IMG/VR virus record: IMGVR_UViG_3300035212_000888
Coordinates: 1 to 39,738 of that record
DNA: 39,738 bases
Source: a virus
Direction: 5' to 3' (one strand)
The number at the start of each line of letters is the position of its first letter. Within the stretch, counting starts at the first letter, position 1. Below, piece by piece: positions 3,028 to 17,267 of the stretch. The translations under genes were made by a program, and so were the position numbers. The notes beneath the pieces were generated by a model. It did no database searches, was not told the DNA's origin, and saw nothing but the letters and a program-made list of their open reading frames with translations.

Positions 3028-3179
3028 GGGTTGGTCTTGGTGAAAATGCGCTGGCAGATGGCCAGCATGGCTTCGGATGGCACCAGAGGAGCGGTGCCGT
3101 AGTTGTCCTTGATGCCGGCGCGGACGTATTGCCCAACGAGGCGCCAGAAGTTCGTGTTGTCGGTTTGTCGGAGGGTCAT
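3024..3179 (-). CDS. small hypothetical protein
   Basis: 51 residues (MTLRQTDNTNFWRLVGQYV... to ...RIFTKTNP), of unknown function. It has ATGA overlaps at both ends: its start with the methyltransferase stop and its stop with the HTH gene start. That is strong evidence it is a real translated gene. The composition suggests a short helical protein; nothing more can be said. Confidence 0.6.
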   Translation of the reverse strand: MTLRQTDNTNFWRLVGQYVRAGIKDNYGTAPLVPSEAMLAICQRIFTKTNP

Positions 3180-4831
3180 GGCTGGTGTTCCGTCAGCTCG
3201 CTAACAAGAAGTCTGAATGCTCGCTCTGCGCAGGCTGGCACAACGCCGTTCCCGAGGAGTCGCAGCTCGTCGGTGCGATTGTCACAGGTGACGTACAGCT
3301 CGGCATGGTCCAGCCAATCGGCAGGCCCATCAGCGTCTCGACCCAGCGTGGATTCAATTTCCCCGTCTGCTGTCTCTCCACCATCGGCGTCAACTCCTTG
3401 TATTCCCGCTCCTCGTTGCCTCGGCCGCTCTTGTGGTCGCGGGCTGTTGGGGTGCCCCATTGCGCCTGCTCGTTCAGATTCTTCACGCCATGTCCCTTGG
3501 CTCTCATCACCGCAATCTGCTCCGGTGTCTTCGGGCCTTGAGCATCGTGGGCTTGTGGCGTTGCCCATTGCGCCGTCACTTGGTTCCCCAAGTCCGTCTT
3601 GCTGCCATCCGCTTGACCATTCGGATGATGGTCCCTGGAGCATGGCGTTGCCCATTGCTTCGTCACTTGATGCGTCAGCCCATGATGCCGCTTGTCCACG
3701 CCCATCGGCGGGTTCTGCGCTTCGCAGGCGCGCGGCGTCATCCAATTCACTTGATTCACCAGCAAGTCCCTCTCGCCGTTCGCCGTTGGATTCGTCCCGC
3801 TGTGCTTGCTGTCCTGCACCTGCGGCGTCCACCAAGTCTCCTTCGCCTGACTGCTCAACGTCCCATGACAATGCGCTCCCCGATCCGCATTCCTCGCTGC
3901 GAAGTTCGGATCGCTGTCCGGCTCGTTGGCTCTTAGCGTCAACCACAACCCTTGGCGGCTCCCATGCGAACTGCTGCTCGCCGGGGCGGCTTGGCCATGC
4001 TTGTCCCAAAACTTGACCGCATGCGTGATTGTTGCTGGAGATTTCTGATTTGCTCCAAGCGCGCTCCCGAATTGATGAGCGTCCGGCGTTGGCCAATTCG
4101 CTGAGTCCTGCATCACCGCCATTGTTGCAAGCGGAACTGAATTGCGATCCAACTGCGATTTGCCGACCGAGTTCTTCGATTCGTTGACGCTGATCGTAGG
4201 CCAATTCTTCTGCTCCTCGTTGATCGCCGCCACATGCAGCAAGTTCGTGTGGTTGCCGCCCTTGGCTTGAAATGGCGTGATGCCACCCTGCTTGCCATCC
4301 TGGCTCGTTGCGGTGGGCCAAGATGAAGACCCGCTTCCTCTGGTGAGGCGCGCCGCACTCACTCGCGCTCGCCACGCACCACGTCGCTCGGTAACCCAGT
4401 CCGACCAAGTCTTGCAGCACGTCGGATAGCCCAAGGCTGATATGTCCCTCGACGTTCTCGGCGAAACAGACACTTGGTCGCATTTCAGCAATTCCGGCTG
4501 CAATAAATGGCCAGAGGTGTCGGGGATCTTCTGCTCCGAGTCGCTTGCCGGCGGCACTAAATGGCTGGCATGGATAACCGAAAGAGCAGATGTCCACGCG
4601 GTCACGAAAGTCTGACCATGGGAAGGTTTTAAGATCCGTCCAGATAGGTGCGCAGTCCAAGAGTCCCGCTTCCATCTTTGCGACCAAGTTCGCGCAGGCG
4701 AAGGCTTCGATCTCGCTAACAGCGATTGTGCGCAGAGTTGGGATTGCTCGTCTGAGTCCAAGATCAATGCCGCCGTATCCGGCACAAAGGGAGACGTGTG
4801 TAACTGGCGAGGGAGAATCCACATGGCTCAT
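3176..4831 (-). CDS. DNA cytosine-5 methyltransferase (Dcm type)
   Basis: A 551-residue protein that would transfer a methyl group from S-adenosylmethionine to C5 of cytosine. Motif I (CAGYGGIDLGL, about 16-26) binds the cofactor. Motif IV GYPCQPFS carries the catalytic Cys (residue 88), followed by motif VI AENVEG (124-129) and motif VIII QRKRVFILA (164-172). The end has DELRLLGNGVVP (motif X). The region between about 175 and 500 is long, low-complexity and repetitive (AMGNA and LANA-like units) where the target recognition domain should lie. The opposite reading frame over the same bases also looks coding (see findings). ATGA overlaps link both ends to neighbours. Likely roles are protection from host restriction or epigenetic control; no cognate restriction enzyme is seen. 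Confidence 0.85.
   Translation of the reverse strand: MSHVDSPSPVTHVSLCAGYGGIDLGLRRAIPTLRTIAVSEIEAFACANLVAKMEAGLLDCAPIWTDLKTFPWSDFRDRVDICSFGYPCQPFSAAGKRLGAEDPRHLWPFIAAGIAEMRPSVCFAENVEGHISLGLSDVLQDLVGLGYRATWCVASASECGAPHQRKRVFILAHRNEPGWQAGWHHAISSQGRQPHELAACGGDQRGAEELAYDQRQRIEELGRQIAVGSQFSSACNNGGDAGLSELANAGRSSIRERAWSKSEISSNNHACGQVLGQAWPSRPGEQQFAWEPPRVVVDAKSQRAGQRSELRSEECGSGSALSWDVEQSGEGDLVDAAGAGQQAQRDESNGERREGLAGESSELDDAARLRSAEPADGRGQAASWADASSDEAMGNAMLQGPSSEWSSGWQQDGLGEPSDGAMGNATSPRCSRPEDTGADCGDESQGTWREESERAGAMGHPNSPRPQERPRQRGAGIQGVDADGGETADGEIESTLGRDADGPADWLDHAELYVTCDNRTDELRLLGNGVVPACAERAFRLLVSELTEHQP
3193..4325 (-). other. alternative reading frame within the methyltransferase gene that also looks protein-coding
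   Basis: Reading one base out of phase with the methyltransferase from about 4325, the minus strand stays open to a stop at 3193. It contains repeated WPTP/WATP/WGTP-x-A-x-D units (SWPTATSQD, NWPTPDAH, WATPCSRD, WATPQAHD, WGTPTARD) and ends with LNPRWVETLMGLPIGWT. I recognise such repeats and this terminal motif from C-terminal regions of other phage Dcm-type methyltransferases. A +1 shift near 4325 would fuse methyltransferase motifs I-VIII to this alternative C-terminus. Confidence 0.5.
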
Positions 4832-4968
4832 GCGTCCTCCTCGTTGCCATCATCATAAGGATCGTAGGGCACTCCATAGGCCGCCATGCAGTCAGCCGAA
4901 TGCGCCCGGCTGATGTCAGCCTCACGCTGTTCATCGTCACACCGGTCGTCGTAGTCGGGCTCGCTCAC
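4828..4968 (-). CDS. small acidic hypothetical protein (GTG start)
   Basis: 46 residues, highly acidic (SEPDYDDRCDDEQREAD at the start, DPYDDGNEEDA at the end). The start is GTG at 4968, overlapping the upstream TGA as GTGA, and its own stop overlaps the methyltransferase start as ATGA. Acidic small phage proteins can mimic DNA or inhibit host enzymes, and its position directly before a methyltransferase would suit an anti-restriction role, but that is speculation. Confidence 0.5.
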   Translation of the reverse strand: MSEPDYDDRCDDEQREADISRAHSADCMAAYGVPYDPYDDGNEEDA

Positions 4969-8872: not shown

Positions 8873-9112
8873 TTAAGCTGTCTCTGCTTCCAGCTCCCGG
8901 TCCAGCGCCGTGTCAAAGCACGCCACCTTGTCCATGAGCTTTCCCTCGCCGTTCTCAAAGTCCTCGACGATCTTGACCATCTCAGCCTCGTCCATCTTGC
9001 GTGGGTTGTAAAACACGTTGAGATCCTGCACCGGGATTTGCTCCCAGCCCTCTGGGCCAGCGTCCTGATCAGTCACCAAAACGTGGTCATATTTCGGGTT
9101 GAAATTGCTCAT
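8873..9112 (-). CDS. small acidic late protein
   Basis: 79 residues, acidic (MDEAEMVKIVEDFENGEG...). The N-terminus NPKYDHVLVTDQDAGPEGWEQ resembles a short strand-turn segment. Unknown function. Start in an ATGA overlap with the giant polyvalent gene, so translated after it as the last late gene. Confidence 0.55.
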   Translation of the reverse strand: MSNFNPKYDHVLVTDQDAGPEGWEQIPVQDLNVFYNPRKMDEAEMVKIVEDFENGEGKLMDKVACFDTALDRELEAETA

Positions 9113-12100
9113 TTGAGGATCAACGGAATTTTACTCTTTTTCATCGTTCCCGCAACAGTTTCCTTCGTCCCGCCGCGGACCTTTGGATTTGGGTGATTCT
9201 TGGCGTAATCGGGGAACAGCTTTAGTGGATCGGCTGGCGCGTTAAGGATAAAGCTGTCCGCATTCTCCGGTCCCAGCATTACCCAATCGTAGGACGGATG
9301 CGGCCGGAATGTGCCAGAGGCCAGCAACTGATCGCGCAGCAGCCGTTCGTTGGCGCTCATCTTAGATTCTTCTTTGGCGTTCTTGCCGAAGTAAACCGCA
9401 AATGCATCGGCATCCTTTGAGAGTTGCACTACGCCGACTACGTCGAGGTTCTTGCCGTTCACAAAGTCCATGGAGTCATTCAGCATCGCCTTCACGTCCG
9501 GTGCAAATGGGATGCCGGTGATGCGGTCCATTGCCGCCCCGCGCTGCTTGAAGGAAAACCTTGCCGCCTCGTCCACAAACTTGGTGTTTCGGTATTTCGA
9601 CGACATCGCGCTGTACCAGGGCTCGTTGCGATATTTTGAGACAAGCGAGCCAAACTCTCCTTGAAACTCCTTCATGCGCCCGCGCGTTGAATGGCTCTTG
9701 AGAGGACTCAGCCGCGAAAGAAATTCAGCCATTGGGCGATACTTGGCAAACGTGGCGTTGTATTGCTTTTCCGCTTCGGCTAGTTCCGAGAGTTCCGCTT
9801 CTTTTTTAAGCACTTCTTTTGATAAGCGCTCAACTCGGGAGTAAGCCTGATTGATCCTGCCCTGCGGATTAATCGCACCAAGCTCAAGGAGCACATGCAA
9901 GAAGTCAGCCTGGTCGTCCGACATGCTGGCGCGCCGCGCGTCGATCTCGGCGGTCACATCCATGACGAACTTGCGGTTACTGCGGTGCGCGTTCTCCTTC
10001 ATGATCTGGATCAGCGCATGGCCGGCCGTTGTGTTTTTGACGATGTTTTTGGCGCGCGTGACGAAGCCGCTGTTCATGTTCGCCCACACCGGCTTGTAGC
10101 CTCGACCATCGGGAAGATAGACGACCGTCTGGTTGTTTATTAGGAAAGGATGCAGCGGGCCGCCCATGTTGTCGCCGCGCGTGTTGTGCCGGTCGGCCTC
10201 AAGCATTGCCACTTGCTCGCCGCTGATGCTGTCAATGCCAGCCACGCGAGGCTGCATGGTTGTCCTTGGGTCAACGTGATATTCCAGCACGCGCCCATCA
10301 GCCGTGGGCTTGGTGCCGATTATGTAGAAGCCACGATCAGGAACCTGCGGCGGCAGCGTGTAGTTGTCATCATGAACCACATCCGGCATCGCCTGCCCGC
10401 GCGCAGGCGTCCTGATGACAACTTGGTCATCGTTGAAAAACGCGCGCAGAGTGCTTTGGGGGTCAACAGGGAAGATTGCGTCATGACCGAGCGACTTGAG
10501 CCTGCGGACATCTTCCGGGCTAGGATCAATCAGCAAGTCTTGATCGCTGGTGTAATATGGGTTGCTTGCCCTGGCAGCCACATCGTACACGCGGCCGTCA
10601 TCGCGCAGGTCCGCATAGTATTCCGCGCCGGCTTCATCCGTTGAAATGTAGATGACGCCGTCCTTGCCGTCTTTTTGACGAGACCAAGGAGATGAAGCCT
10701 TCAGCCTCTGGATGCCTTTGGGTCCGCCGTGGAAGCCTTTTATGGGGTAATCCACGTCCGGCATGAACAACGCCTGCCCAGCCTTCTGGATACCGTCGCG
10801 CATCTGCGGGGTGATGTTGACGCGCCAGATCTTAGTTTGCTCTTTGGGCGGGTTTTCCCTGACGATGTATCCTTGGCCCGCTTTTTTTGCGGCAGCTTTT
10901 GCCTTGTCCATCGTTTCAAAGGCAGTGATTGCCCTGTTGTCTGGACCGACAACGTCAAACCGAAGGTCATCAAGCGGACCCAAAACCGTGATGCCAGATT
11001 TCTCCACCTGCGCACCCCACTGCTTCACATACTTGGCGACATCTTTTAGAACAATCTGATCGTAGAACCCTTCCATGCCCTTGCCGCCGATGGTCAGCGC
11101 GCTGCCCGAGAATCGCATCTTCTCTTGCTTGCCCTCAATGGCTTTGGTTGCCATTTCTTTGCCGATTAAATCAGCCAGTTTTTCTTGACCGACAGCACCA
11201 GAGTCAATGACCCGCTTCTCGCCTTTGTATCCGAAAACGTAATAGGACTGGCCGTCCTTGTCCTTGGTCACCTCAACGGCATCTAGATTGTCGGCGATCT
11301 GCTTGTCATACCGCGCCGCCTGCGTCTCCCCAGTCGTCCACCCAATCCATTCCTTGCCGTCCGCCACGGCGTCACGCAGGGCGCGCTTGAAGAGCTGCAG
11401 CGGCCAGCTTGTGCGGAAGGGGGCGTCGGGGACGCCGCCAGCAAGGGCGTCTCGTTGTCTAAGCAGGTCGCTCAGTTCTTGCTGCTCGCTTTTCGTGATT
11501 CCCCGCGAAGATTCTTTGCGGACAAGTTCGTTCAAGCGGTTTTTATTTAAGTCCTCACGATATCCCTTCTCCCGCCCCTGCTGATGCCTATCCGACTGCA
11601 GCTCCTCAATAAAAAGCCCCTGCTTGCCCTTGGCGTCCACCCGCTCGTTTAGGCGCATGTGGGCGATGTAGTTGGGAACATCTTGAAAGTGTGACGACAT
11701 CCATTCTTTTGGTCGCATCCCCATCGCTGACTCAATGGCCGCAATCTGGCTTTCTGATGCTGCGCGCTCCGTTGGCGAATCAGACGCATTAAACTTAATT
11801 GTTGCCTCTCGAAGTGCTTGTTTGAGGGTTTCTTTTGGAGGAATCGCCAGCACCACCTCGCGGTAGTTCTCGCCGCCGTCGAGCTGCCATTGAGCGTATT
11901 GGGTCTGGTTGCCGGTATTGTTGGCATCGCTGCCTAGCTGCTGGTCTTCGTATTCCAGCACGGCGCGCTCATACGCCGAAAAGTCTCTGCTTCTCTGCGC
12001 CTCTCTCTCAAGCTGGTCAATGTCGGCTTGCGTCCACTGCTTCTTGGCACCGCCCATCGTCACCTCCTCAAGTCTCACAGCCCCATCCTCAGCCAGATAC

Positions 12101-15100
12101 CTGAGCAACGCCTCCTTCGGCACCTTGCCGTTGTTCTCCTTGGCCAACCGCTCGACCTCCTGCATCACGCCGGTCCACTTCAGCTCCTCGGCCTTGATGC
12201 CGTTTTGCGGGTTGGTGAGGATAGCTTTGATCTGGTCAACGGTCGCCGCCTTGCCCTGCACCTTGGCGTCGAGGGCTTGGGAGGACTTGAGGTAGAATGG
12301 CGGGGCTTCCGAAATGTCCGGCATCGCCTGCCCGCGGGCAGCGGCGGGCTGCGAAATCCTCGCGCCATCGTAAACCGGATGCTCCTTGCCACGAATGCTA
12401 ATACGCCCGACCTCGTTGCCAAGCGACAGCTCTCCGCGCGCGGTTGGCCGCAGTCTAGGCTCGCTCGGCCTGTCCGAGTAGCGCGCCAGATCAACGCCGC
12501 CCTCAAAGTCGGCGCGCAGTGCGTACACATGTTGCCCGCCACCCTCAACCGACACGATGGTTGATGTCGCCGGCGCGTTGTCTGATATCCACTTCCACCC
12601 AGCCTTTTGCTTGAAGAGGTTTGTGCGGTATGTACGGCCAGACTTGGCGGGTTGCGCTGCGGGATCGCCGTCAACAAACAGCCGCGGCTTTCCAGACGAC
12701 ACGTCGATAAAGCCAGCGCCGTACGAGCGCCCGGTCAAATCATCGCCGCTCTGCGCGTCAAAGAATTTGCCGCCGCGCTCGTAGGACTCGATGGGGAAGC
12801 GCGCAAAAAATGGAGGCGGCTGCGCAAAGCGCGACTGGCGATTGGGCTCCTGGCCGGTTCCAGTGAATCGCTCAGGAACGACAGCAACATCCGGCATCGC
12901 CATGCCAGTCTGCGGGAGGGCGCTGGGCATGCGGTTGTTGTTCTCCTTGTCGTAGTCGAAGAAGTATCCGGTGCGGCCGGTGGGCTTGGCATCGTTGAGC
13001 CGGTCCACGCGCCAAGTGCGAAGGCTGCCCCTAGGGTTCAGCTCTGCGTAAAGGGGATTAGCCGCACGCTGCACAGCCGTGCCAGTGCCAATAAGTCCAT
13101 TGAGAATGTCTCGTTTGGCTTGACCGATGCCAGCCTCGCCGGGGCGACCTTCGCGGTGATTGGCCAGACGAATCTTTAGATCAGTCTCAACCTGCCTCAT
13201 GTCGTTGTTGAAGATACTCAGTTCGCCGCGGTTAATCGCCTTCATGGTCGCCGCGCGGAAGGCATTTAGGTCAATGGCCACAGCCAGCAGGTGGTTGGCC
13301 TTGGTCACCTGCCAGCCGAGCGGCACGGTCTCGCGCTGGATCGCGCGCACGTTGCCCAGGTTGGTCACACGGTAGCGTCCCGAGGCTCCGGTGCCGATGG
13401 CGTTGTAGTCGATGTCCCAGCTGCCGCCCTCAGCGCGGCTTTGCTCCATGGAGCGGGCAAACTCGCGGACGTGCTTGGGGAAGTTGGTGAAGAAGTCAAA
13501 CTGCGGCGGCAGCACCGGCCCGCCGACCACCTCGCGGCCGTTGACCTTACGCTTGCCGAACTCCTGCGAGTTGACCGGGACAAACTTGCGCGCATCGTAG
13601 AGCGTCTTGATCTGTGCGCTGCGGGCGTTCTCGGTCGCCGTGATGATCTTCTGCGGCTTGAGGCTGTAGGTGCCGTCTGGCTTTTGGAACAGGAAGTCAT
13701 TCTCTAGGACGCCGCGGCCCTCATCGCGCAGCTTCACATGCGTGCTCCGGGCTAAGTCTTCCGGCTTGCTGCTGCGGGCCAGCTCCACGCCGCGCAGCTC
13801 CTTCGCTCCGGCTTCCTCGAGGCCGGCGAGGTATTGGTCGTAGCTGCGAACGTATTCACGCACCCGCTTCTGCATGATGCGGTCTTGGAAAAGCGGATTG
13901 TCGCGGAAGAGCACCGAGGGGTTGTCCATCAGCTTGCCGGTGCCCGGGTCAAGGCGTGCGCCCATGACCTCCAGCACGCGCCCGCCGGCCGACAGCATGG
14001 ACTCGGCGAGGCGAGGGAACATGGCGTCACGGCGGATGGCCCGGAAGTCGATGGCCGGAGCCTCCGAGGCAAACGTCTCGGCAACGATCTCGTCGCGCGC
14101 CCAGTCTAAGGCGTCCTCGCCCTTGTCGATGCTGCGCTGGCGGAACTCCTCGACGCGCTCGTTAATCAGCCGGTCGCGCTCGGCGGGGTCTTTGGCTCGG
14201 TCGGCCACGATGTTGTCCATCGTCTTGCCGCCGTCCATTGCCTTCATCTCGGCATCGGTCAAAACTGTCGGTGCCTCGCCGGTCACGCCTTGGCGAAGGT
14301 CGGCGTCCACCATGCGGGCGATGTACTCGCGGCCGCGCGATTCAACGCCCCCGGGGCCGTACTGCTGGTTGACTAGGTTGCGCAGGTCGTTACGCGGCTG
14401 GCCGTCCAAGATGTTGCTGGTCAGGATGGCGTGTCCGATCTCATGCGGGGCGATGGCTTCGGTCGCTGTCTTGCCGTCCAAGTTGATGAAAACGCGCGCC
14501 CGGTTGTTGGCGTCCCGGTCAAGGAACACACCGGCCGTGGCCTCGCCGCCGTTCTGCGCGATGTCCGCGTTCATCCGGTACTCGTCGCCGGTCAGCGGAA
14601 CGAAATCGACCTTGCCGGCCAGCACGCCCTGCATGGCAGACAGGCGGTCCAGCGTGGCGTGCGGCAACCGCGCGAAGGCTTCGACGTTGCCGCCGACCGC
14701 CTGGACATCGGCAAACATCCGGGCGATGTCTGCGTCCGCCGCCGTGCCTGCCCGCCGGGCCACACCGCCAGCCAAGCCGCCCACACCGCCCAGTGCCAAG
14801 ATCCCGCCCATGACCTCACCCGCGCGCTCGGCGTCGGGTTGCAATGCGGCGAAGGGCGAGCCTACAATGCCTGCCGTCACGGCGCCGCTCACTGCGTCAT
14901 CCGCGGCTCTGGCAACCTGCGTTGCACCCATCCGGTCGGCAAATCTAGCCCCACGGCGAAGTGCCTCCGGGTTGCCAGAGTCCTGCGCGACACGCTTGAG
15001 GGTGCTGTCGGTGCCGTCAACGTATCCGGTGAAAAACTTGCGGTAGCGCTCCGGCACCGCGGCGTTGCCTGCCAGGCTGCTCGCTGCCTCTGCGCGGGCC

Positions 15101-16362
15101 ACGCCCAGGCCGCCAACGCCAGCCTCGCGCACGATGGTCGCCGCGCCGCCGGCCGCAGAGCCGACCTTGCGCAGCAGCCCGCCGCCGTAGTGCAGTGCAG
15201 GCATCACGGCACCCGCCATGAGGACCGCCTTGGTGATGCCGCCGCCGCCATCGGTCGCGCTGTCCACATAGACCGCCGTCCCGGCCACGCCTGCGCCCAG
15301 TGCCGCCTGCTGCTTTTGGGTCAGCCCGGTGATGTCCTGCAGCCGCGTCGAGATGCCCAACTCAACACGCTCGGCAACATCAGCCAGACCGCTGGCCACG
15401 CGCTCGGCGCCCAGCATTGGCTTTTCGGAAAGATTGGCGATGCGGCGTAGTACCCGGGCCTTACTCAGTGCACCGGCACCCAGAGGCAGGGCGTTGAGCG
15501 GATCAACGACCATGCTGCCCAGCGTCGAGATGGTCGGCATCGGCTGCTCATCGGTGATCTGGTAAGTTCCCGCGGAGGTCGGCACCGACATCTGGCCCTC
15601 GCCGGTCTTGAACTCGGAGACGTTGGCGAAGTCGCGCTCCAGCGCCTTCTCGCGCACATACCGCTCGTAAGCCTTGCCCTTGTCTTCGCGGGCTTGGTCT
15701 AGGGTCGGCGTGTAGGCTCCGGCCTCGCGCGCTTCAGCGAGTGCCGCCTGGTAGATCTGCTCGTCCTGCTCGCGGTCTCCGGTCACCTTGCCGTCAGCAA
15801 TTAGGCGGTCCATGATCCCGGCGTTGATCGCCTCGGCGCGCTTGCTTCCAGTGGCGAGGTCATCGACCTTGCTGCCCACCCAGTCAAAGAGCTGCACCAA
15901 GTTGATGCCGCCCTTGCGGATGATCTCCGCGCCGGTCTGCACGTTGCGCTGCACTTGGTTGACCGGGTCGGTCACCATACCCACCATCGCGCCCTGCAGC
16001 TCGCGGCCGGTCTCCGGGACCATGCCGATCAGTCCCGCGGCACCTTGTCCTAGCCCCTCAAAGAAGCGGCCGACCTCGCGGTCCTCCTTGTCGCGCCGGT
16101 CCCAGTACTGGTCAAACTCCTGCGGCGTCATGACGTAGTCCATGCGCCGGTAGTTCTCCTCCTCGAGTTGGTTGAGTTGGAACTCGGACAGCGCAACAGG
16201 CTCCTCCGGCTCCGGTGCCGGGGCTGGCTGCGGATTCATCCGCTGGGCGAATGGTGTGTACGCAATGGCGCCGGCGTTCTGGCCACTGACCAGCCCGGAC
16301 TCCTGCAGCTCTAAATCTGCAAGCTGTTGGTCGGTCAGACCGTCTATCGCTTCTTGTACCAT
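9109..16362 (-). CDS. giant polyvalent/internal virion protein with metallopeptidase and ADP-ribosyltransferase-like regions
   Basis: About 2417 residues from ATG 16362, which has GGGAG 10 bases upstream; a GTG at 16386 is also possible. Glycine-rich hydrophobic stretches near 350-420 and 510-540 could interact with membranes. Residues about 640-644 read HEIGH with a downstream DEIVAETFAS, a zinc metallopeptidase signature. Around 1585 is EELQSDRHQQGR, a motif of phage polyvalent proteins. About 1710-1790 holds LTIGGKGMEGFYDQI. About 1870-1985 (KGFHGGPKGI...VIYISTDEAGAEYYAD...YDVAARASNPY) resembles ART-PolyVal ADP-ribosyltransferases. The motif MPD(V/I) recurs near 1155, 1346, 1866 and 1991 at apparent domain borders. 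It is encoded after three internal-virion-type genes, so it is probably packaged and ejected into the host. Confidence 0.75.
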   Translation of the reverse strand: MVQEAIDGLTDQQLADLELQESGLVSGQNAGAIAYTPFAQRMNPQPAPAPEPEEPVALSEFQLNQLEEENYRRMDYVMTPQEFDQYWDRRDKEDREVGRFFEGLGQGAAGLIGMVPETGRELQGAMVGMVTDPVNQVQRNVQTGAEIIRKGGINLVQLFDWVGSKVDDLATGSKRAEAINAGIMDRLIADGKVTGDREQDEQIYQAALAEAREAGAYTPTLDQAREDKGKAYERYVREKALERDFANVSEFKTGEGQMSVPTSAGTYQITDEQPMPTISTLGSMVVDPLNALPLGAGALSKARVLRRIANLSEKPMLGAERVASGLADVAERVELGISTRLQDITGLTQKQQAALGAGVAGTAVYVDSATDGGGGITKAVLMAGAVMPALHYGGGLLRKVGSAAGGAATIVREAGVGGLGVARAEAASSLAGNAAVPERYRKFFTGYVDGTDSTLKRVAQDSGNPEALRRGARFADRMGATQVARAADDAVSGAVTAGIVGSPFAALQPDAERAGEVMGGILALGGVGGLAGGVARRAGTAADADIARMFADVQAVGGNVEAFARLPHATLDRLSAMQGVLAGKVDFVPLTGDEYRMNADIAQNGGEATAGVFLDRDANNRARVFINLDGKTATEAIAPHEIGHAILTSNILDGQPRNDLRNLVNQQYGPGGVESRGREYIARMVDADLRQGVTGEAPTVLTDAEMKAMDGGKTMDNIVADRAKDPAERDRLINERVEEFRQRSIDKGEDALDWARDEIVAETFASEAPAIDFRAIRRDAMFPRLAESMLSAGGRVLEVMGARLDPGTGKLMDNPSVLFRDNPLFQDRIMQKRVREYVRSYDQYLAGLEEAGAKELRGVELARSSKPEDLARSTHVKLRDEGRGVLENDFLFQKPDGTYSLKPQKIITATENARSAQIKTLYDARKFVPVNSQEFGKRKVNGREVVGGPVLPPQFDFFTNFPKHVREFARSMEQSRAEGGSWDIDYNAIGTGASGRYRVTNLGNVRAIQRETVPLGWQVTKANHLLAVAIDLNAFRAATMKAINRGELSIFNNDMRQVETDLKIRLANHREGRPGEAGIGQAKRDILNGLIGTGTAVQRAANPLYAELNPRGSLRTWRVDRLNDAKPTGRTGYFFDYDKENNNRMPSALPQTGMAMPDVAVVPERFTGTGQEPNRQSRFAQPPPFFARFPIESYERGGKFFDAQSGDDLTGRSYGAGFIDVSSGKPRLFVDGDPAAQPAKSGRTYRTNLFKQKAGWKWISDNAPATSTIVSVEGGGQHVYALRADFEGGVDLARYSDRPSEPRLRPTARGELSLGNEVGRISIRGKEHPVYDGARISQPAAARGQAMPDISEAPPFYLKSSQALDAKVQGKAATVDQIKAILTNPQNGIKAEELKWTGVMQEVERLAKENNGKVPKEALLRYLAEDGAVRLEEVTMGGAKKQWTQADIDQLEREAQRSRDFSAYERAVLEYEDQQLGSDANNTGNQTQYAQWQLDGGENYREVVLAIPPKETLKQALREATIKFNASDSPTERAASESQIAAIESAMGMRPKEWMSSHFQDVPNYIAHMRLNERVDAKGKQGLFIEELQSDRHQQGREKGYREDLNKNRLNELVRKESSRGITKSEQQELSDLLRQRDALAGGVPDAPFRTSWPLQLFKRALRDAVADGKEWIGWTTGETQAARYDKQIADNLDAVEVTKDKDGQSYYVFGYKGEKRVIDSGAVGQEKLADLIGKEMATKAIEGKQEKMRFSGSALTIGGKGMEGFYDQIVLKDVAKYVKQWGAQVEKSGITVLGPLDDLRFDVVGPDNRAITAFETMDKAKAAAKKAGQGYIVRENPPKEQTKIWRVNITPQMRDGIQKAGQALFMPDVDYPIKGFHGGPKGIQRLKASSPWSRQKDGKDGVIYISTDEAGAEYYADLRDDGRVYDVAARASNPYYTSDQDLLIDPSPEDVRRLKSLGHDAIFPVDPQSTLRAFFNDDQVVIRTPARGQAMPDVVHDDNYTLPPQVPDRGFYIIGTKPTADGRVLEYHVDPRTTMQPRVAGIDSISGEQVAMLEADRHNTRGDNMGGPLHPFLINNQTVVYLPDGRGYKPVWANMNSGFVTRAKNIVKNTTAGHALIQIMKENAHRSNRKFVMDVTAEIDARRASMSDDQADFLHVLLELGAINPQGRINQAYSRVERLSKEVLKKEAELSELAEAEKQYNATFAKYRPMAEFLSRLSPLKSHSTRGRMKEFQGEFGSLVSKYRNEPWYSAMSSKYRNTKFVDEAARFSFKQRGAAMDRITGIPFAPDVKAMLNDSMDFVNGKNLDVVGVVQLSKDADAFAVYFGKNAKEESKMSANERLLRDQLLASGTFRPHPSYDWVMLGPENADSFILNAPADPLKLFPDYAKNHPNPKVRGGTKETVAGTMKKSKIPLILK

Positions 16363-17267
16363 TTTCCGTCGTCTCCCTTTTCCCACATGATTCCACTAAT
16401 GGTTTTGGTCGGACGCGGGGCCGCTGCTGTGGCGGCCGGCGCGGACGGTTGTTGGACAATCTCGCCGCTCGTAGCGCGCTTCTCGGCCCTGTCGAGGACG
16501 GACATAAAGTCATTCATCGACTTCTTGAAGCCCTCTTCGCTCTGCGACTGCTGCGCGCGGACGATGGCTTGCGTAGCCTTCTCGCCCTCAACCTGGGTGA
16601 TCTGACCGCCGCCCTTGAGACTTTCAAACGCCTGCAAGAACGCGCCGCCCTGCACCTGGTCGAGGAGAGCCTTAAAGTCAGCCTCCTTCGTTCCGGCAAT
16701 CGGCTCGCTTTTGAGTCCGAAGAGGTAGGCTTGGTTCTTGGCGCCGACCGAGCCGGAAAAGCCCGGGTGGGTCAGCACGTCATTGATCGTGCCGCGCATG
16801 CTGCCGATGGTGTCGAGCGTGGACTGCTGCCGCTGAACCCTTTGCGTCTTCATTGCCTCAGACTCTGTCTGAAGTCGATTCTGCTGCGCTTGGCGAACTG
16901 GGTCAGACGCCTGCACCTGCATCCTTGACTCGGCCTCCATGCGGCGGGTCATTTGCGAGGTAATAAACTGAGCGGCCGACTCCGGCGTGAACTGAACGCC
17001 GCGCTTCATTGCCTTGAGAAGCTCCTGCTGCTCCGAGGGCAACGCATCAAAGTCCTCGCGGGTCTGCACGTTGAGCGAGTTGAAGTCAAAGCCCACTCCG
17101 GTCTCCGGCAGGGGAGCCTGCGCCACGTCCTGAGCCACGGCATCGGGCACGCCGCCGTAGAGGCTGTCGGCAAAGATTGGGTCTTCGCCCGGCATCATTG
17201 GGGCGTCGAACTCGTTGAGCGGTGGGAGGTCCGGCTCGACCGGAGGTGGTAGTTGTTGCGGAGGCAT
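16344..17267 (-). CDS. putative internal virion protein
   Basis: 307 residues. Pro/Asp-rich N-terminus (1-70), then long helical, Gln-rich segments (DPVRQAQQNRLQTESEAM) and a C-terminal Ala/Pro linker ending KGDDGKWYKKR. No enzymatic motif. It overlaps the start of the giant gene by 19 bp and sits in a run of four genes shaped like podovirus ejection proteins. The role is inferred from position. Confidence 0.5.
   Translation of the reverse strand: MPPQQLPPPVEPDLPPLNEFDAPMMPGEDPIFADSLYGGVPDAVAQDVAQAPLPETGVGFDFNSLNVQTREDFDALPSEQQELLKAMKRGVQFTPESAAQFITSQMTRRMEAESRMQVQASDPVRQAQQNRLQTESEAMKTQRVQRQQSTLDTIGSMRGTINDVLTHPGFSGSVGAKNQAYLFGLKSEPIAGTKEADFKALLDQVQGGAFLQAFESLKGGGQITQVEGEKATQAIVRAQQSQSEEGFKKSMNDFMSVLDRAEKRATSGEIVQQPSAPAATAAAPRPTKTISGIMWEKGDDGKWYKKR

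Follow-up and report, generated by a model that had tools for sequence, protein, structure and literature searches.

The window, that is, the whole stretch of DNA analysed here, is the entire virus record IMGVR_UViG_3300035212_000888 with a length of 39,738 bases. Genes for an integrase, a DnaB-like helicase, a replication initiation protein, an exonuclease, a terminase, a major head protein and an amidase/endolysin were recognised in it, and, because of this set of integration, replication, packaging, head and lysis genes, the virus is regarded as a tailed and probably temperate phage. One ORF of 2425 aa on the minus strand (9109–16386) probably encodes a large virion-associated protein, and 22-bp short tandem repeats (GGTGCAGCAATTGCACCACTTA) are found at 987–1047 within a replication-initiation-like ORF (531–1397).

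On the minus strand, positions 3176–4831 are occupied by a C5-cytosine methyltransferase ORF of 551 aa, named here frame A, or alpha (PF00145, E 5.5e-32, residues 12–184; phrog_363, E 3.4e-54). Within the PF00145 match, motifs I–VIII, including PCQ and ENV, extend over 4280–4798 (I at 4769–4792, IV at 4541–4579, VI at 4445–4459 and VIII at 4319–4342), and motif X of the GNxVVP type, DNRTDELRLLGNGVVPACAERAF, was found by alignment at 3215–3283 (residues 517–539). The variable segment between motifs VIII and IX and motif IX itself do not belong to this chain, both being located in the +1 frame (frame B, or beta). The PF00145 match of A extends no further than position 169 in a profile of 324, M.HhaI and M.HaeIII, retrieved in a search of solved-structure sequences, align within motifs I–VIII only, and no motif IX was seen on inspection of A between VIII and X. 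Frame A is a Dcm-like C5 METHYLTRANSFERASE without the specificity part. Its long, hydrophilic stretch from VIII to X contains LANA/MGNA-type units, which are most readily explained as a reflection of B, since tryptophan is encoded by TGG and TP by ACN-CCN, and W-x-TP in B forces [LMV]-x-[NDHY]-[ASTP] in A.

Frame B is an overlapping minus-strand ORF of 543 aa with its own ATG (3193–4824), supported by a match to phrog_1008 (E 7e-21) and by the tests of stop avoidance and selection described below. It contains nine W-x-TP-x-A-x-D-like units at 3436–4320, whose first tryptophans begin at 4320, 4203, 4095, 3945, 3834, 3744, 3654, 3567 and 3459, followed by LNPRWVETLMGLPIGWT at 3307–3357. These units and their ending were noticed in the sequence-only reading of this DNA, as was the phase relation of the two frames, and both were found in place: HPNSPRP of A (3434–3454) and TPTARDH of B (3433–3453) are one base apart. 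Opposite motifs VI–VIII of A, B has a conserved helix-like stretch, TWSDWVTERRGAWRARVSAARLT (4342–4410), with W140, V144 and R154 invariant in the alignment; it is one of two stretches with pLDDT of about 84 in an AlphaFold2 model of B alone. AlphaFold2 was run on an A-to-B fusion (L210) and on B by itself (L016), and in both models confidence in the B part was low. The protein also matches phrog_26627, and phrog_1008 is labelled 'DNA methyltransferase', in agreement with the earlier statement that motifs of this kind occur in annotated phage methyltransferases. A Pfam search with B alone and a PDB search with a B profile gave no match. Searches by tblastn located B within methyltransferase genes of C75C1, C72C1 and Paenibacillus larvae and Synechococcus phages, in an unchanged phase relative to A, and a short B query matched 191 phage records.

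The relatives indicate what frame B is. L278, a virus contig of actinobacterial type as judged by its relatives, has motifs I–VIII, four TP units, VSPAFVEWLMGLPSGRVTD and LGNGVVPQQA in one frame, and this chain matches both phrog_363 (2.2e-60) and phrog_1008 (2.7e-45). Its TP segment shows 82% identity over 45 aa with the +1 frame of L271, and frame 0 of L278 matches the +1 frame of L285 (7e-30). The +1 frame of L278 itself contains 8 stops. Window B is linked to L278-type chains via L184, Jacopo and C72C1 (E 8e-18 to 2e-13) and by phrog_1008. In L173 (Candidatus Megaera), L190 (Nocardiopsis), L142 (virus contig) and L184 (Alicyclobacillus), motif X is immediately preceded, within a single frame, by the sequence LNPxWVExLMGxPxGW or a close variant, which was assigned to motif IX because this position matches that of IX in C5 methyltransferases; in L190 and L173, the PF00145 profile is aligned from end to end. 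Since the parts of B are homologous to single-chain relatives at these very positions, B is, by homology, the carrier of the VIII–IX segment and of motif IX, both missing from A. The target-recognition domain of C5 enzymes lies within the VIII–IX segment (PMC3404938), and the position and homology of the tandem W-x-TP units suggest a role in recognition.

Across the relatives, the same parts are distributed between the frames in at least four layouts. All parts are in one frame in L278; A has I–VIII, and B the segment with IX and X, in L285, L299, L315 and L184, a layout similar to that of L142, where A is longer and ends before X; A has I–VIII, IX and X, and B the segment only, in L271, L272, L355, L190 and L173; finally, A has I–VIII and X, and B the segment with IX, in the window and most other loci. 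In a set of 97 loci picked by similarity to B, with A and IX both located and a few plasmid loci included, IX was found in +1 inside A in 92, and X in A in 87 of these 92. In L039, L089 and L091, B units run past the stop of A. Downstream of 3814 in L039, past this stop, the B frame has another motif IX together with a pair of nearly identical MWKTP units, so the array of units can grow where A is non-coding. In the actinobacterial-type virus contigs L284–L311, A stops at varying places after VIII, and B, open for at least about 300 nt before the stop of A, continues with IX and often X, which by sequence is an AquI-like division of the enzyme. In L022 (2499–4382), the B frame runs without a stop into about 280 more residues, which resemble a distinct protein joined to beta. 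Overlapping pairs have been annotated in the Paenibacillus phages Diva and Jacopo and the Escherichia phages K1G and fTaEco01. In L005 (Synechococcus phage Ssp-JY39, 2008–3123) and L358 (Pseudomonas phage PMG1, 1276–2037), it is the beta frame that bears the gene annotation, and the overlapping catalytic frame is unannotated there.

The same DNA is coding in both frames, and B is a real gene. The proposal that 3193–4325 codes twice was borne out by tests of stops, substitutions and starts; the span free of stops, put at over 1.1 kb, is indeed open, and its extent was underestimated, since B, with its own ATG, also lies opposite the whole catalytic part and the overlap reaches 1.63 kb. In all 166 loci carrying A (GC 39–64%; some repeat one contig, and the later tests used distinct sequences), the +1 open run was longer than the +2 one, with medians of 370 vs 63 codons. 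Shuffling of synonymous codons of A was applied to 51 landmarked loci, picked for motif IX in +1, the first A profile having been seeded from genes found via B. In this set, the +1 frame had 12 stops in the catalytic part vs 132 predicted and none in the VIII–IX part vs 126 predicted, i.e., 12 vs about 258 in both parts together. Past the end of B, 89 stops were observed vs 73 in shuffles, that is, without stop avoidance, and no avoidance in +2 was detected anywhere along the gene in these loci. Loci fetched by other routes gave the same picture. For the window gene alone, +1 stops were as few in 3 of 200 shuffles.

Selection was studied in 15 disjoint pairs, in which isolated substitutions were classed by their effect on A and B. 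The ratio of A-silent/B-changing to A-changing/B-silent substitutions in the VIII–IX part was 0.48 (0.24–0.83) with an A-guided and 0.26 (0.15–0.41) with a B-guided alignment. The corresponding values were 6.6 for the catalytic part, 5.0 for the tail and 7.8 for neighbouring genes (eight gene pairs). Outside the VIII–IX part, A-silent/B-changing substitutions were 5 to 8 times commoner per site, as in an ordinary gene read in A. Because the ratio inverts between VIII and IX, B is the dominant frame there, under purifying selection stronger than that on A. Substitutions changing both proteins are rarest in this part (about 0.01 per site), and A is also constrained in it, since the ratio of A-changing to A-silent substitutions is 0.24–0.40. 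In the catalytic part, the 15 pairs show no constraint on B beyond openness. The ratio of B-changing to B-silent substitutions takes similar values in the tail beyond B and was therefore discarded in favour of the comparison above. Both frames are under selection, and coding in the two frames has been retained in many phages whose hosts are very different bacteria. Homologues conserving one frame only, which would have spoken against two coding frames, are not the rule: most relatives keep both, and in the loci with one frame closed (L184, L285, L299 and L315), the closed frame is A, which ends after motif VIII, and B persists.

The two starts lie side by side. In the window, the start region ATG-AGCC-ATG-TGG (4820–4831, minus strand) contains the ATG of A (4831–4829), that of B (4824–4822) and an in-frame GTG of A (4822–4820), and a Shine–Dalgarno-like GAGGAGG (4836–4842) stands 4 nt before the ATG of A and 11 nt before that of B. 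Among 116 distinct upstream regions, 92 have a B start codon that is immediately followed by W-[IV]-[LIV]-P or a similar sequence, exactly ATGTGG in 82; the GTG inside the B start is in frame A in 89, being the sole A start codon within 40 nt in 46, and an upstream A ATG, as in the window (GAGGAGG-ACGC-ATG-AGCC-ATG-TGG), is found in 27. The remaining 24 regions include several with ATGACATGG (the ATG of B, then that of A 5 nt on) and relatives having a short B with an internal start. A Shine–Dalgarno-like match of at least 4 nt was found 4–12 nt ahead of the B start in 65 of the 92 relatives. The N-terminus of B is conserved in 33 distinct sequences of equal length (M 33, W 33, I 31, L 30 and P 33), A being variable there, and in this region B-silent substitutions amount to 0.174 and A-silent ones to 0.077 per site. 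Conservation of the B start and N-terminus argues for initiation of B independently of A.

This bears on the mode of expression, for which the sequence-only reading had offered frameshifting or internal initiation: B has its own conserved start, and the former mode finds no support. A programmed +1 ribosomal frameshift near VIII would fuse motifs I–VIII of A to the segment and IX of B, beside an unshifted A product. Joining the frames at VIII would indeed restore the canonical order of motifs, and L285, L299 and L315 have an A that ends shortly past VIII and a B that goes on with IX and X. However, a product shifted at VIII has no need of the conserved ATGTGG start and B N-terminus, nor of an open 5′ half of B with its strong deficit of stops opposite the catalytic part; none of eight candidate slippery motifs around VIII is common to most of 126 distinct sequences; L271-type genes, with the segment in +1 and IX and X in frame 0, would take two shifts; and the shifted product of the window would be without motif X. 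Frameshifting is thus considered unlikely.

It is even less probable that B is a separate overprinted protein of unrelated function, e.g., anti-defence, merely sharing the gene. Its own start, long N-terminal part and lack of a Pfam match would fit such a protein, but the parts of B are built into one chain with I–VIII and X in L278, a chain matched by phrog_1008 itself, and motif IX is just what A does not have. The idea that B is open as a side effect of the amino-acid and codon composition of A, and that B proteins in databases are wrong-frame gene calls, can hardly be credited, because, although shuffles of A do give fewer +1 than +2 stops (6.8 vs 18.4 per gene), it is rejected by the shuffle, substitution and start tests, and B stays conserved in loci with a closed A (L184, L285) and has units beyond the stop of A in L039, L089 and L091.

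We therefore return to A and B as two parts of one enzyme, which they look like because B supplies the VIII–IX segment and motif IX missing in A. For the same reason, the earlier suggestion that two alternative C-termini give one phage two specificities is not supported. With good confidence, the locus can be read as one C5-cytosine methyltransferase made as alpha and beta from overlapping genes by dual initiation, the two polypeptides being expected to assemble into an active enzyme. Alpha would comprise catalytic motifs I–VIII, a read-through spacer and motif X, and beta an N-terminal stretch opposite the catalytic domain, the tandem W-x-TP-x-A-x-D units and motif IX. Adjacent start codons behind a single ribosome-binding site would yield both subunits, in many relatives through ATGTGG, where beta begins at the ATG and alpha at the GTG, and in the window through ATG-AGCC-ATG-TGG. 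After assembly, beta would give target recognition and motif IX, and the alpha spacer and the beta N-terminal part would be side effects of the overlap that are obliged to remain open. The purpose would probably be to shield the DNA of the phage from restriction by the host. The part of the window genes that was scanned included no recognisable restriction enzyme, and, because the scan covered this part, the methyltransferase is only likely to be an orphan, protective one.

Some known systems resemble this arrangement. M.AquI is a two-polypeptide C5 methyltransferase (CYCGRG) split after the catalytic motifs; L184, L285, L299 and L315 are like it in that one chain carries I–VIII and the other carries IX and X, whereas the window has X on alpha, IX on beta and an overlap of 1.6 kb. 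M.EcoHK31I and M.EaeI are also two-polypeptide C5 methyltransferases (YGGCCR), and the small polypeptide of M.EcoHK31I is encoded in an alternative frame inside the gene of the large subunit; the window polypeptides likewise come from overlapping frames of one DNA. Two-polypeptide C5 methyltransferases are established in the literature, and in M.EcoHK31I, motifs I–VIII and X are on the large subunit, IX is on the small polypeptide and the predicted target-recognition domain was placed on the large subunit (PMC3404938). By motif layout, the window is similar, one polypeptide carrying I–VIII and X and the other carrying IX. Unlike in M.EcoHK31I, the VIII–IX segment of the window, homologous to that of single-chain relatives, is in beta. 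A further difference is that beta here extends over almost all of the alpha gene, has its start region in common with alpha and contains up to nine repeated units. The single chains of the L278 type from actinobacterial viruses have the same order of parts (I–VIII, TP units, IX, X), but all in a single frame. The families phrog_363 and phrog_1008 and the pairs in Diva ('g49 internal gene') and K1G (gp34/gp35) correspond to alpha and beta of the same arrangement; these annotations leave the one-enzyme relation unstated, and the betas are shorter, with an internal start. In the literature covered, which was a part of the whole, no description of this overlap was found.

A more general idea, for which the balance of probability falls somewhat short of even, is that these genes form a class of phage methyltransferases with the specificity subunit overprinted on the catalytic one. 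The ATGTG start overlap may set the subunit ratio, the W-x-TP units may be serial recognition modules varying in number and kind between phages, and alpha may only need to stay open.

In our opinion, the proposed two-polypeptide C5 methyltransferase encoded by overlapping frames, apparently widespread in phages, explains why two kinds of C-terminus occur among phage Dcm-like genes and why two database families of 'DNA methyltransferases', phrog_363 and phrog_1008, exist for the same DNA. Alpha cloned alone, as the annotation would suggest, would probably give an inactive enzyme. These loci also constitute a large natural set of near-full-gene overlaps for studies on the evolution of two interdependent proteins in one DNA and on the way in which one ribosome-binding site serves two frames. 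M.EcoHK31I would thereby cease to be a rare curiosity and would exemplify a design common among phages whose hosts belong to several bacterial phyla.
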